From Dehalogenimonas formicexedens (lineage in GTDB: Bacteria; Chloroflexota; Dehalococcoidia; Dehalococcoidales; Dehalococcoidaceae), in assembly GCF_001953175.1 (NCBI RefSeq), contig NZ_CP018258.1, positions 524,210 through 588,209 of the forward strand: a DNA stretch of 64,000 nt. The letters run 5' to 3'. Under the pieces are notes generated by a model. That model saw only the letters and a list, made by a program, of their open reading frames with translations. It made no database searches and was not told the DNA's origin. This document shows, piece by piece, positions 48,135-53,994 of the stretch. How positions within the stretch are numbered: the stretch's first letter is position 1; the number at the start of each line of letters is the position of its first letter. Made by a program: the position numbers and the translations under genes.

Positions 48135-48809
48135 TCATTTTTTTATCAGGTAACCGGTACCGGATTTGGTCATGATGGAGCCCTGCATACCGATAGCTCC
48201 GAGTTTCTGCCGAAGATTGCGCATGTGTACCCGGATGGAATTGGCGGCATCCGCCGGAATCTCACCCCAGATAGACATCGAAAGGTCGTTATGGGAAACG
48301 GGTTTGCCCATGTTCTGGGCCAGGCAATACAGCATTTTGCCTTCGGTGGTGGTCAGCTTAACGCTCTGCTCGCCACAGGTGATCTGCCGGCGTGAGGCAG
48401 AAAAATGGAACTGTCCCAGAGAAATCGGTGAGCCGCTGTCACCTGCCCGCTGGCGGCGCAGCAGAGCCTTGGCGCGGGAGACAAATTCCATCTGGCGGAA
48501 CGGTTTGGTGATGTAATCGTCGGCTCCCAGCTCCAATCCCCGAACCACATCCGACTCTTCGTCACGTACGGTAAGGATTATTACCGGAACACTCGAATGG
48601 GCGCGGACCTCTTTCAACATCTCCAGGCCGCTTTTATCAGGCAGACCGAGGTCAAGAATGATCAGGTCGGGGTTTTCCTTGTCGGCAAGTTCGATGCCCT
48701 CCTGGGCGAGCCCGGTAAACACAATCCGGGAATCAGGCCAACTCACCCGCAGGCACAGACTCACCAGTTCGACGATGGCGCCGTCATCTTCCACGATCAA
48801 GATTTTCAT
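48135..48809 (-). CDS. OmpR/PhoB-family response regulator
   Basis: 224 residues: receiver domain (IVEDDG, phospho-Asp in IILDLGLPDKSG, TKPF Lys) and a winged-helix DNA-binding domain (LTTTEGKMLYCLAQNMGK; SIRVHMRNLRQKLGA). It follows the histidine kinase by 13 bases. A rdh regulator is plausible given the soluble PAS kinase partner and distance of 5.5 kb from rdhA. Confidence 0.94.
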   Translation of the reverse strand: MKILIVEDDGAIVELVSLCLRVSWPDSRIVFTGLAQEGIELADKENPDLIILDLGLPDKSGLEMLKEVRAHSSVPVIILTVRDEESDVVRGLELGADDYITKPFRQMEFVSRAKALLRRQRAGDSGSPISLGQFHFSASRRQITCGEQSVKLTTTEGKMLYCLAQNMGKPVSHNDLSMSIWGEIPADAANSIRVHMRNLRQKLGAIGMQGSIMTKSGTGYLIKK

Positions 48810-48822
48810 GCCATTCTCTCCT

Positions 48823-51312
48823 TTACGATTTACTACAGGGTACCTTGAAATAAAAAGTGCTGCCTTTACCTATGGCGCTTTTCAGCCAGATCTGACCGCC
48901 GTGCAATTCCACGAACATTTTCGCCAGGGCAAGGCCCAACCCAAGACCGCCGAGGCGTTTTTTATCGGTATTCTGTCCGCGATGATACGCCTCGAAAATA
49001 TGGGGAAGGTCAGCGGTCGATATACCGGTGCCGTCATCGGCTACCGCGATTAAGGGTCCGTCAGCCTCTGGGCGGACCGATATTTTGACATGGCCGCCTT
49101 TGCGGCAGAACTTGAACGCGTTAGACAGGAGATTAGATACCACCTGGCGCAAACGGTCGGGATCGGCGCTGATCTGGATCGGCGTCTGGGGTAAGTCCAG
49201 TTCAAGATGGATCCCGCGGTGAGCGGCTTCAGGCTGGACGTATTCCGCGATCTTTGCCAGGAGGCCTACAAGATCGAAAGAACGATAGGTGAGACGAAGC
49301 GTGCCGACTTCACCTCGCGCGAGGTCCAGCAGTTCGTTGATCCGTTTTTCCATATTCCGGGCGCCGGCTTTGATGTTGTGGGCAAAGCGGCGGGCTGTTT
49401 CATCAGTCAGGCTGGCCTCAAGATAATCGGAAGCGGTCAAGAGCGGAGTTAAGGGGGTTTTGAGCTCATGCACCAGCGCCCGGGTGTAGAGCGAACGCTC
49501 TTCAATCTGCTGCCTGAGGGCGCTTGAGAGGGTTTGTTCCCTGTCGAAGAGCAGGCGTAAATCATTCTCGGCTTTCTGCCGCTGGATTATCTCCGAACCT
49601 AATGCCTGTGTCCTAACCGCAACCATATCCTCAAGCCGGTGCTGGTAGCGCTCTATCTCTGCCTGGGAGTTTCTTTGCTCCGTGGTGTCACGGACGATGT
49701 TAATGGTTGAGAGCGAACCGTCGGGGTGACTTTGAAAGGTTTGGATCAATTCGCAAGGGAAAACCTCTCCACTCTCTCGGCGCTGAAACGTCTCAGTGCG
49801 AAGTCCTTCGGCAGCTTTTCCACCGCGAATCGCCACAGAAAGGCGGCGCGATTGAGCCAGGTACGAAGCACGATCTGGAAACAGGAAGCCGGGAGTCCGT
49901 CCGAGGCACTGCTCGGCGGCATAACCATACATTTCTATCACCCGGCGATTGACGTATTCAATGCGATTCCCCGGCCGCCGGACGACAAAAATAGCATCGG
50001 GCAAGGAATTGTTCAATTTTTCCAGCCGGTCCAGGCTCTCCTTAAGTTGCCGCTCAACCGTTTTTCGGCTGGTGATGTCAAGACCGTAGAGGTTCAGGAA
50101 ACCGTTTTCTTTGTCCGGAAACAGAGTCAGGGCGTAGGCCGTACCGCCGATCTCAATCTCCGTTTCGAATTCTTCTCCGGTTTTCCAATTGTTTGAGGCC
50201 CGTTCAGGCCACGGAGAAGGAAGGACATCGCCAATACTGACTCGCCACTCCCGGAGAAGCGGTACCGCGGCAGGATTCGCAAAAAGGATCACTCCTTTAT
50301 TTGAAAGCCGAAGGATCGGGCTTGGGTTGGACAGCGCAAAAGCGGCTAAACTGCGGATCTCGGCTTCCTGTTCCAATCTTTTTCTGATGTCGCGAATTAC
50401 AGATAATATTACCGGTTTGCCGTTCAGTTCGAACCTATGGGCGGCCACCTCCGACGGTATGGGTTGTCCCGATTTGGTGCGGTGAACGAGTTGGACGGTC
50501 AAATGCCCGGTCCTCTGGAACGTCTCGGAGCTGACGTTGGTCTTTGCATAACTTTCAGGCGTGTTGAGGTCGCGAGCCGTCAACCGAAGCATCTCATCGC
50601 GGGTGTAACCGTATCTATCGCAGGCGACCTGGTTTGACTCGATAACCCGGGTTTCACCGCCGGAATCAGGAACCTCCCAGAGGATGATGGCATCGCCAGT
50701 GTTATCGAAGAGGGCACGGAAGCGCTGTTCGCTATCGCGGAGCGACTGGGTAAGACGCACCCTCTGGATGGCATTGCCCAGCACGAGGCCGATCTTTTCA
50801 AGCTCGCCGACCAGACTGGCCGGGACCATGTTTTCACGCATGTCTGCCACGTGGATCAGGCCAAATATCGATGTCCCCGATCTTATCGGAATCAGAGCGA
50901 CAGATTCATAGCCGTGAGCATTGCAGTCATTGCGGGGCTGACCCTTTTCATCATCCGAAACCGTGGCCCGAAAATCGCTCCTCCGGTTTATGAAGAAAGA
51001 GCCTATTTCGGTATAAAACGGTTTCGAAGGATCAGTAGTGCCGGCGATAACATCGGTGCATATGCGCCGGTCAATACCAGTCACCGGAAAGTTTTCGAGT
51101 TTGAAGGAATCCTGGCAGAATCCTTCGAAAACGGCGCATTCGGTGTTCTGCTCTCCATCCAGCACCAAGATTCCAACCGCAGAGCAACCGGTCAGTCCTT
51201 TGAACTCTGCAAGGAATTCAACCAGCAGTGGTCTGATCTCGACATGCCGGTTAGCGATCGCAAGAAACTTGTAGGCGGTTTCCAGTGTCTGTCCTGAATG
51301 GAGCATCGCCAT
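48823..51312 (-). CDS. Soluble GAF/PAS histidine kinase
   Basis: 829 residues with no membrane helix, so it senses a cytoplasmic cue. Domain order: GAF (about 15-190), three PAS domains (about 205-320, 335-420, 440-560), HisKA with the phospho-His in ALVHELKTPLTPLL near 610, and HATPase (DDGTGISTADLPHIF; RLGGLGLGLAL). Cytoplasmic PAS kinases of this form often pair with rdhA genes in Dehalococcoidia. ATG 51312 and 51306 are both possible starts. Confidence 0.93.
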   Translation of the reverse strand: MAMLHSGQTLETAYKFLAIANRHVEIRPLLVEFLAEFKGLTGCSAVGILVLDGEQNTECAVFEGFCQDSFKLENFPVTGIDRRICTDVIAGTTDPSKPFYTEIGSFFINRRSDFRATVSDDEKGQPRNDCNAHGYESVALIPIRSGTSIFGLIHVADMRENMVPASLVGELEKIGLVLGNAIQRVRLTQSLRDSEQRFRALFDNTGDAIILWEVPDSGGETRVIESNQVACDRYGYTRDEMLRLTARDLNTPESYAKTNVSSETFQRTGHLTVQLVHRTKSGQPIPSEVAAHRFELNGKPVILSVIRDIRKRLEQEAEIRSLAAFALSNPSPILRLSNKGVILFANPAAVPLLREWRVSIGDVLPSPWPERASNNWKTGEEFETEIEIGGTAYALTLFPDKENGFLNLYGLDITSRKTVERQLKESLDRLEKLNNSLPDAIFVVRRPGNRIEYVNRRVIEMYGYAAEQCLGRTPGFLFPDRASYLAQSRRLSVAIRGGKAAEGLRTETFQRRESGEVFPCELIQTFQSHPDGSLSTINIVRDTTEQRNSQAEIERYQHRLEDMVAVRTQALGSEIIQRQKAENDLRLLFDREQTLSSALRQQIEERSLYTRALVHELKTPLTPLLTASDYLEASLTDETARRFAHNIKAGARNMEKRINELLDLARGEVGTLRLTYRSFDLVGLLAKIAEYVQPEAAHRGIHLELDLPQTPIQISADPDRLRQVVSNLLSNAFKFCRKGGHVKISVRPEADGPLIAVADDGTGISTADLPHIFEAYHRGQNTDKKRLGGLGLGLALAKMFVELHGGQIWLKSAIGKGSTFYFKVPCSKS

Positions 51313-51350
51313 CGCCAAGGGTGTGCCTTTTTTCTTAATGATTTGAAGCT

Positions 51351-51379: not shown

Positions 51380-51537
51380 TAGTTTCATGGTAAAAATCCA
51401 TGGTATATTTGAAAAAAATAATTAGGCCAAGGTTATGAAAAGCATACTTCGGCCACGCATGGCTGCCGGCGCTTCAATTGGATTTCCGTTAAACGAAGCT
51501 CCCGGCGATCCAACCCCGATTTTTTATGGGCATCGAT

Positions 51538-52527
51538 TCAAACTGCCGGCACGGGCAGTGGATTTTCGCCCGCTCAACCACTGCCTGCCCCTGCAATACA
51601 GCCATAGCAATGCTCCCCAAATCTGATATCGCGGGCCAATAGCCGATCGAGGTCGAAGGCGAAAATGTCTCCTACGGGTAATCCGAGCGCGAAGTTGAAA
51701 TCACAGTCATAAAGCCGGCCATCGATCCCGACGCTCAAGCGCGACCGGCACAGGGCGCGTTCAATTGACAATTCAATGGCTGACCGGCGCAGGCTATTTT
51801 CAGTATTACGTAGTCTGCCCCGGCGCCGAAGGGAGACGGCATGCCGCCCGATAATCAGGTTGGTCACGGTCAAGATTCCATCAATCATGATGCCAAATTC
51901 GCCCAGCCTACTTTTGAAAAGCTGTTCGAGCTCAATTCTGCCGGAGAGGGTCAGCGGCTGGTCCGAGTTCACAACCAAGATCAGAGCCAATCCACGAGTT
52001 CCGTAGCCGGCCGCGTTCAGCAGCCGCAGGGACTCGATGCTTTTTCGGAAAACCCCGCGCCCCCTGACGGCATCGGTCGGTCCCGCCTCCAAATACGGCA
52101 GGGACGCTAAAATCTCCACCTGGTTGTCAGCGAAAAACTGCGGCAGCGCCAGCTTTGATTCGCCCGTAACCGGATTGCCATCGAGGGTAACAGTCAGATT
52201 ATGACGGACAACCACCTTTTTACCCATCTCCGTGAGCGCACCGACAATCCGTTCGAATCCGGGATGAAGTTCCGGGGCGCCGCCGGTGAGATCCACGGTT
52301 CTGATCTGTTGGAATTTTTCGAGAACCCTAAGGCACTGCTGAATGATGTCATCTGTCATGTGGATTCCGGAGTCTGGCGAAGCCCGGACATGGCAGTGGG
52401 CGCAGCGTTGATTGCAGAGGCTAGTGATATTCAGCCACAGGGAATCGACCGTCTTCGGTGACGGATTTAAGTGCCGTGAGTTCAGCCAATGGACGAACGC
52501 CGTATCCGGTGTATCAAGCCGCAGCAT
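51538..52527 (-). CDS. arsS: Arsenosugar-type radical SAM protein ArsS, probable selenoprotein (in-frame UGA)
   Basis: The radical SAM motif CNQRCAHCHV, DLTGGAPELHPGF and the C-terminal DUF3641-like part fit ArsS, proposed to transfer adenosyl to dimethylarsenate in arsenosugar synthesis. The frame reaches HCYGCIAGAGSG and then TGA (51574-51576). In cysteine forms of the family the text is GCTAGxGSSCGG, so this TGA sits at the Cys site. Reading through gives AGENPLPVPAV before the stop at 51538, making 329 residues with Sec318. A hairpin follows the UGA. Reading it as a plain stop would cut off the last conserved residues. ATG 52527 overlaps the upstream gene by 14 bases. Confidence 0.8.
51542..51559 (-). 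promoter_or_regulatory. Candidate bacterial SECIS hairpin
   Basis: After the UGA and a 14-base spacer the mRNA folds ACTGCC-CGTGCC-GGCAGT. The loop begins 20 bases after the UGA and has G at its second position, fitting the loose bacterial SECIS rules (G among the first two loop bases, 16 to 37 base distance). Confidence 0.55.
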
Positions 52528-53863
52528 AGTCGTGCCCAAAGGTATCTCCGATTTCCGGTTGACGGTTATTCCCGTCCCGGCCAGCCTTCCACATGATCCA
52601 GTCTTCTAAAGTATCTATATCTAGCAGCTCTGGCAGAATTTCGACCGAAAGCCCCGCTGCCCTTATATTACCCTGCATCTGGGCCAAAACCGAGGATGAA
52701 CTCCAGGCGATGTTCTTGAACAAAAAAGGTGAAGACCGTTTCAGGCCAATCAAGTAGAAGCCGCCATCCGGAGACGGGCCAAGCACAACATCTTTTTCCT
52801 CTAAAGCAGCGAACGCGGTCTTTATGTGGCGTGGTCTGAGGTCCGGGATATCGCTGGCGATGATCACTACCATGGCCGCACTTTTGGCAAAAGCCATGTC
52901 GAATCCAGCGGTAAGCCGGACCGCAAGGTCCCCCTCTGGTTGGGCAAGGCTTTCGAATCTGCCGCCCGCCCAAGATGAAATGCGGCCGCAATCGGAGGCT
53001 TCGGCACAATAAAGGTACCTGGCGATAGCATCGGGCAGCGCGGCGGCAGCGCCAAAAAGAGACTCCGCGCAAAAGCGGTAGATTTTTGCCGCGGACTTCT
53101 CACCCACACCTGAAGCTAGTCTGGATTTGACCTTCCCGGGTTCCGGATAACGCACCATCATCATCAGAAAACACTTACTGGCGCGATCGGAGGTACGCTC
53201 GTAGGCGAGGGACAAACCTTTGGGCGCGGCACCGGCCAGATAGTGCAGCGTTAACAGGATGTTTCGAAACGTTTGGCGGCAGATTCCGGTATGCGTGAAC
53301 CGGCGCGCCGATGTGGTCACATATAACGGGAAGAGTATTACCCGGGTCTTACGGTTAGCTTTACGCAAGAATTCAAGGTCCTCAAAAAGAGGCTGATCGG
53401 GAAAACCGCCCAGCTCCATGAAAACGGTGCGGCGGACGGTAATCGATGAATCCCCGAACCGGAACCAGTACGGCCTCACCCCGGAAAGCCGTTCCAATAA
53501 CTTTAGCAGCCAGTGGCGGGAATCGAACTTAAGATGGAACACGCCGATTTCTGTTTGGGGGTCCCGGAAAAAGGCTGCCAACCGGGCAAAGGCGCCTTCG
53601 GGCAAGAAGGTATCGGCATGCAAAAAGACGAGGATATCACCCCCGGCTACCGCTGCGCCGGCATTCATCTGACCGCCGCGGCCAGGCGAAGAGGAAATAA
53701 CTTTAGCGCCCCTGCCGCGGGCAATCTCGGTCGTAGAATCGGTGGAGCCGCTGTCGGCAACGATGATTTCAACGTCCGGACCGAGTTTGCGGACACCATC
53801 TATACACTGACCGATAATGCTTTGTTCGTTCAAAGTTGGGATGATTACGGAGAAAAGGGTCAT
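52514..53863 (-). CDS. Fused arsenosugar-type glycosyltransferases (GT2 family TIGR04283 + TIGR04282/DUF2064)
   Basis: Residues 1-230 are a GT-A family 2 transferase (SVIIPTLNEQSIIGQCI; VADSGSTDST; DILVFLHADTFLP). Residues 235-449 resemble the TIGR04282 family (MVRYPEPGKVKSRLA; IIASDIPDLRP; VVLGPSPDGGFYLIGL). These two families usually occur as separate genes beside ArsS; here they are one polypeptide. ATG 53863 has GGAG 6 bases upstream. Overlap with arsS implies coupling. Confidence 0.85.
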   Translation of the reverse strand: MTLFSVIIPTLNEQSIIGQCIDGVRKLGPDVEIIVADSGSTDSTTEIARGRGAKVISSSPGRGGQMNAGAAVAGGDILVFLHADTFLPEGAFARLAAFFRDPQTEIGVFHLKFDSRHWLLKLLERLSGVRPYWFRFGDSSITVRRTVFMELGGFPDQPLFEDLEFLRKANRKTRVILFPLYVTTSARRFTHTGICRQTFRNILLTLHYLAGAAPKGLSLAYERTSDRASKCFLMMMVRYPEPGKVKSRLASGVGEKSAAKIYRFCAESLFGAAAALPDAIARYLYCAEASDCGRISSWAGGRFESLAQPEGDLAVRLTAGFDMAFAKSAAMVVIIASDIPDLRPRHIKTAFAALEEKDVVLGPSPDGGFYLIGLKRSSPFLFKNIAWSSSSVLAQMQGNIRAAGLSVEILPELLDIDTLEDWIMWKAGRDGNNRQPEIGDTFGHDYAAA

Positions 53864-53994
53864 CCTGCGCTCCATGACTGTATGGAATCCAATGGACCGT
53901 TGCGATTATACCAGCGTCTTAAATTTTGCCCAACTGTTCAGCCTGAATTACAATCGGAACTGTGATACCTGATAAGATTGCATGCGGTGATCAG

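Follow-up and report, generated by a model that had tools for sequence, protein, structure and literature searches.

The closest described relatives of the gene analyzed here belong to family TIGR04167 (rSAM_SeCys), which is named "arsenosugar biosynthesis radical SAM (seleno)protein ArsS." Cys-type ArsS proteins are of the same fold family and carry the same motifs, with approximately 38–49% identity to the protein described below, and an ArsS was reportedly characterized by Cheng et al. in 2021 (cited in PMC12159101). TIGR04167 is catalogued as a predicted selenoprotein family with the motif GxxU (PMC13188914), which documents a point made in an earlier note on this DNA, that the family includes selenoproteins, and AAR34688.1 is listed as a member containing selenocysteine (Sec) (PMC13188914, PMC9312934). 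For Dehalogenimonas, all genomes analyzed have selCDAB and an FdnG with Sec according to the available part of one account (PMC13390414), and in that of another, the selD and fdh genes of D. alkenigignens are described as containing UGA (PMC4918011); arsS is not named among the Sec genes of the genus in these parts of either account.

Here, we describe arsS in a 64,000-nucleotide stretch of the Dehalogenimonas formicexedens genome (contig NZ_CP018258.1), referred to as the window. Judged from comparative sequence data, the gene very probably encodes a selenoprotein form of ArsS, in which UGA 51576–51574 is read as Sec and decoded via a hairpin at 51559–51542. Four lines of sequence support were obtained: the Sec machinery, the correspondence between UGA and Cys, a conserved, covarying hairpin and the operon context.

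Identification of an ArsS family protein and its arsenic context

Positions are those of the window.

51538..52527, minus strand: arsS, predicted selenoprotein form, 329 residues with Sec at position 318 (U318), assigned from TIGR04167, Pfam and selection
52514..53875, minus strand: fusion of two arsenosugar biosynthesis glycosyltransferases, TIGR04283 (222 bits, cut-off 182) and TIGR04282 (180 bits, cut-off 134)

The arsS start was placed at ATG 52527, and TTG 52539 is also possible. With C substituted for U, the product scored 293.4 bits against TIGR04167, for which the curated cut-off of 300 bits is an automatic-naming threshold rather than a biochemical definition; the runner-up NCBIfam model scored 35 bits. 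The three congener ArsS proteins reached 323.6, 330.9 and 355.8 bits, and the window ArsS is the most diverged protein among the genus copies. DUF3641 (PF12345; 93.4 bits, Pfam cut-off 24.9) and Radical_SAM (PF04055; 39.4 bits, above the Pfam gathering score) were both detected. The cysteines of the CxxxCxxC motif (C38, C42 and C45) are invariant across 41 sequences, and the HCxxC...[C/U] C-terminal end is present. The window protein resembles TIGR04167 in CxxxCxxC, DUF3641, an HCxxC-x-AGxGSx-[C/U] end with predicted Sec in GxxU, and linked TIGR04282/TIGR04283 glycosyltransferases, whereas it differs in its score relative to the cut-off, in having GSG-U instead of GSS-C/U, in an 11-residue tail with LPV and in the fusion of the two glycosyltransferases in one gene. 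Among the four genus arsS copies, dN/dS was approximately 0.1–0.26 with saturated dS, which is consistent with purifying selection within the genus and with a working protein.

The structure model (pLDDT 88.8, pTM 0.88) is confident to approximately residue 310, and pLDDT drops below 50 at residues 320–329; because the last ten residues are modeled poorly, Sec318 probably forms the base of a mobile tail. YydG/EpeE was the only hit in a sequence search of the PDB, matching across the radical SAM core. Foldseek matches to the model were RiPP maturases, e.g., SkfB (TM approximately 0.5–0.57), which point to a radical SAM fold and say no more.

The glycosyltransferase fusion is located directly upstream and overlaps the arsS start, an arrangement that all four congeners share, and arsM (arsenite methyltransferase; 356 bits, cut-off 263) is located elsewhere in the genome. 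Given the family and this context, the reaction is likely to be transfer of 5'-deoxyadenosyl to methylated arsenite; we infer the arsenic role from the family, the neighboring genes and arsM only. It is conceivable that the protein, although a selenoprotein, is a divergent ArsS relative acting on a different substrate, as its score just below the TIGR04167 cut-off, its long branch and GSG-U in place of GSS-C would allow. The congener scores of 324–356 bits, the linkage to the glycosyltransferase fusion in all four, the presence of arsM and the 35 bits of the next best NCBIfam model argue against this, and we give it a small but real chance.

In a more distant Chloroflexota genome (G281; L138:1450-3450), a Cys ArsS and an ArsM-type methyltransferase form one 666-residue protein, which links the two steps physically; its ArsS part scored 347 bits and its ArsM part 168 bits, the latter below the curated cut-off of 263. 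Just downstream of arsS in the window (48135–51318, minus strand) are a sensor kinase-like ORF of 831 amino acids, with a PAS/histidine-kinase look by eye, and then a response regulator-like ORF.

An in-frame UGA aligns with a conserved cysteine

51574..51576, minus strand: predicted Sec codon UGA, at the aligned position that is Cys in 80 homologues and UGA in 12 other Chloroflexota arsS genes
51541..51573, minus strand: predicted read-through product, C-terminal tail AGENPLPVPAV, the LPV codons within the hairpin
51538..51540, minus strand: terminating UGA (predicted stop), with no bSECIS-type hairpin after it; congeners have UAA, UAG and UAA nearby

The ORF (52539/52527–51574, minus strand) ends with HCYGCIAGAGSG, followed by UGA 51576–51574, AGENPLPVPAV and a second UGA. 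The earlier note had proposed that the frame ends exactly where family members have Cys, and had suggested a homologue alignment at this site. Cys was found at the aligned position in 80/80 fetched homologues from a dozen or more phyla, mostly as AG.GSSCGG, in a sample that may favor Cys because the query used for confirmation carried Cys. The 11 residues that read-through was said to add are likewise as described, running to the stop at 51540–51538. Seven congeners were searched, and the three with arsS all have UGA at the identical codon, with the following ends:

CAAGAGSG-U-AGDNRLPVSATE
CITGAGSG-U-NGDHKLPV
CSAGAGSG-U-TGRHVLPVPAD

Across 400 Chloroflexota genomes, arsS was found in 18, with UGA in 13 and Cys in five. 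The UGA-containing genes are those of four Dehalogenimonas and nine members of one other family, in which the site reads AA.GST-U.

Selenocysteine machinery and other UGA-containing genes

The genome is a single contig of 2,092,789 bases in which tRNA-Sec (selC), selD, selA and selB form one cluster within 5 kb (2056145–2061139), so the machinery that the earlier note had said to look for is all present. The tRNA-Sec is complete (70 bits, Rfam gathering 47), and selD, selA and selB all score above curated cut-offs. Two findings had been named as grounds for giving up the Sec reading, namely, a genome without Sec machinery and homologues ending at the same point without Cys; we obtained neither. 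tRNA-Sec was present in 13/13 genomes with UGA-arsS. It was missing from three of the five Chloroflexota genomes with Cys ArsS, one of which is 89% complete, and from all three sister-genus genomes searched.

In-frame UGAs followed by hairpins of the arsS type also occur in selD (SAYSG-U-AAKIGPG) and fdnG (formate dehydrogenase) of the same genome, and fdnG has an in-frame UGA in all seven congeners where the gene was found. The three genes share the in-frame UGA, the downstream hairpin and a G in the apical loop, whereas the selD loop is CGGGU, the fdnG loop is AGUU-type and both stems differ from that of arsS. The selD hairpin with the CGGGU loop follows the UGA in 7/8 congeners. In the remaining one (G002, L145) the sequence is GGGCCGGGGGACC, which departs from the AGGUC[CGGGU]GACCU of the other seven; the selD SECIS may therefore have shifted in this genome.

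A conserved hairpin follows the arsS UGA

51542..51559, minus strand: candidate bSECIS hairpin ACUGCC-[CGUGCC]-GGCAGU, 6-bp stem and 6-nt loop with GU at loop positions 2–3

Published constraints for a bSECIS are a loop of 3–9 nt, a stem of 4–16 bp, a location 16–37 nt from the UGA and a minimum free energy of at most −7.5 kcal/mol, with a G at loop position 1 or 2 and G or U directly after it (PMC13188914). The window hairpin fits all of them (loop 6, stem 6, spacing 20, −8.3 kcal/mol, CGU in the loop), and its loop begins 20 nt past the UGA, in agreement with the suitable distance claimed for it previously. It is the sole bSECIS-type candidate with a perfect stem after the Sec UGA, and the 45-nt stretch containing it folds with −10.6 kcal/mol. 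After the second UGA (51540–51538) no acceptable bSECIS hairpin was found, the best having +1.5 kcal/mol, and the congeners end with UAA or UAG instead. The two UGAs thus differ in meaning, and the second, 12 codons on, is by these comparisons a real stop.

Taken from a single sequence, the hairpin is only suggestive because 50 of 2183 UGA triplets in the window (approximately 2.3%) are followed by structures within the published constraints, and folding energy alone does not set the stretch apart (z 0.03); it is conservation that carries weight. Under a criterion chosen after the sequences were seen, an N-GUG loop on a stem of at least 5 bp at this distance was found in 13/13 UGA-arsS genes, in 0/79 Cys homologues and after 2/2184 window UGAs. 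Cys-type ArsS genes thus differ from the window gene both in Cys for Sec and in lacking the SECIS-like hairpin. All 13 UGA-arsS genes have a 5- to 8-bp hairpin with a C-GUG loop 19–20 nt past the UGA, and changes in the stem are mostly compensated. The genus hairpins have a 6-nt loop at exactly 20 nt: ACUGCC[CGUGCC]GGCAGU (window), GUUGCC[CGUGUC]GGCAAC, ACUGCC[CGUGUA]GGCAGU and CUGCC[CGUGCC]GGCAG. In one congener, both bases of the pair are changed at two stem positions, and 23/24 cells pair overall, with covariation that is not significant against shuffles for these four sequences (64/500). In the other family's nine genes, the CGUGA loop is closed by stems such as GCACGC/GCGUGC, GCGCGC/GCGCGC and CUCGC/GCGAG; three pairs show compensatory change, and the covariation score was reached by 1/500 shuffles, a figure that does not control for relatedness. 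The SECIS check suggested in the earlier note therefore gave a hairpin within the published constraints and a covarying stem, and its central claim, that the in-frame UGA of arsS stands for Sec, is borne out by the agreement of Cys alignment, machinery and conserved hairpin.

If the UGA were instead an ordinary stop, ArsS would end with GAGSG, and the hairpin would be a terminator or a chance structure. GC-rich hairpins do follow many window UGAs, at the 2.3% rate given above, and the tail is short with a variable end. However, four species would then have truncated the protein exactly at the Cys codon, always with UGA and never with UAA or UAG, and in each case a hairpin with a CGUG loop would have to follow at a fixed distance; the same would have to hold for nine genomes of another family. 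In addition, no T run follows the hairpin. We consider an ordinary stop very unlikely and retain the selenoprotein reading.

The genes of the other family (L127–L130, L132–L136) share the UGA codon, the CGUG hairpin and tRNA-Sec with the window gene, whereas they differ in the 5-nt CGUGA loop, in AA.GST-U and in forming a separate clade in a quick tree. Their terminating UGA lies inside the apical loop of their own SECIS-like hairpin, so that one UGA serves as both loop and stop.

In the window, the most stable fold once upstream sequence is included is a different hairpin, GGCAGUGG/CCACUGCC (approximately 51585–51554), which encloses the UGA and is a possible competitor of the SECIS hairpin. 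It was rejected as a conserved element: 84% of its cells pair across the genus versus 96% for the SECIS hairpin, and its single compensated change does not exceed what shuffles give.

Gain or loss of the arsS gene pair

The closest relative, G004, has neither arsS nor the glycosyltransferase gene. In this genome, 124 unrelated bases (G004:C1:579748-579871; L157) replace approximately 2.46 kb of the window (51445–53900), and the flanks match at 74–85%, which indicates that the pair was gained or lost as a unit. Such a gap in the closest relative, together with the long branch of the window copy as the fastest evolving in the genus, might also suit a TGC-to-TGA change through a sequencing error or pseudogene decay, but the same UGA in three independently sequenced congeners, a frame that is otherwise open with dN far below dS, and intact radical SAM cysteines and HCxxC motif leave this idea scarcely credible.

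The two groups of UGA-arsS are separate in the quick tree, with at least two changes. As only a quick tree was used, in which genus branches are long and Sec ArsS of other phyla is missing, we put forward only tentatively that Sec in the genus ArsS may be independent of the other Chloroflexota Sec-ArsS clade, with convergence on the CGUG loop. The route to such an origin, in which Cys was converted to Sec and a SECIS arose within the end of the gene, is similarly a possibility on the doubtful side.

Discussion

We propose that the conserved C-terminal Cys of the radical SAM enzyme ArsS has been replaced by Sec. SelB with Sec-tRNA(Sec) would recognize the hairpin downstream of the UGA and Sec would be inserted at 51576–51574, after which translation would run for 11 more residues and stop at the hairpin-free second UGA. 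By analogy with the named family, a [4Fe-4S] cluster held by the CxxxCxxC cysteines would cleave S-adenosylmethionine, and the 5'-deoxyadenosyl group would be joined to methylated As(III) from ArsM as a step in arsenosugar synthesis. More speculatively, the selenol, on a flexible tail beside the conserved HCxxC, may act in or close to the active site, either by binding the arsenical or by performing a thiol-type redox step; a role in arsenic binding or reduction is plausible.

A Sec-containing ArsS is not new in kind because the name of TIGR04167 already refers to Sec and the family is listed among predicted selenoprotein families. What is added, with high confidence, is a well-supported new group of members together with their SECIS. 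For Dehalogenimonas, probably organohalide respirers, in which Sec was reported earlier for SelD and formate dehydrogenase in the available parts of the accounts cited above, this adds a well-supported predicted selenoprotein that is likely to be arsenic linked. The gene is also a clean example of a standard-code ORF caller dropping a conserved residue; that automatic annotation would truncate the gene is a prediction of the earlier note. The 13 SECIS hairpins share a loop type but vary in their stems and could be used to test how SelB reads its targets in Chloroflexota, and if the selenol does touch arsenic, Sec-dependent organoarsenic chemistry would become testable against the Cys form of ArsS.
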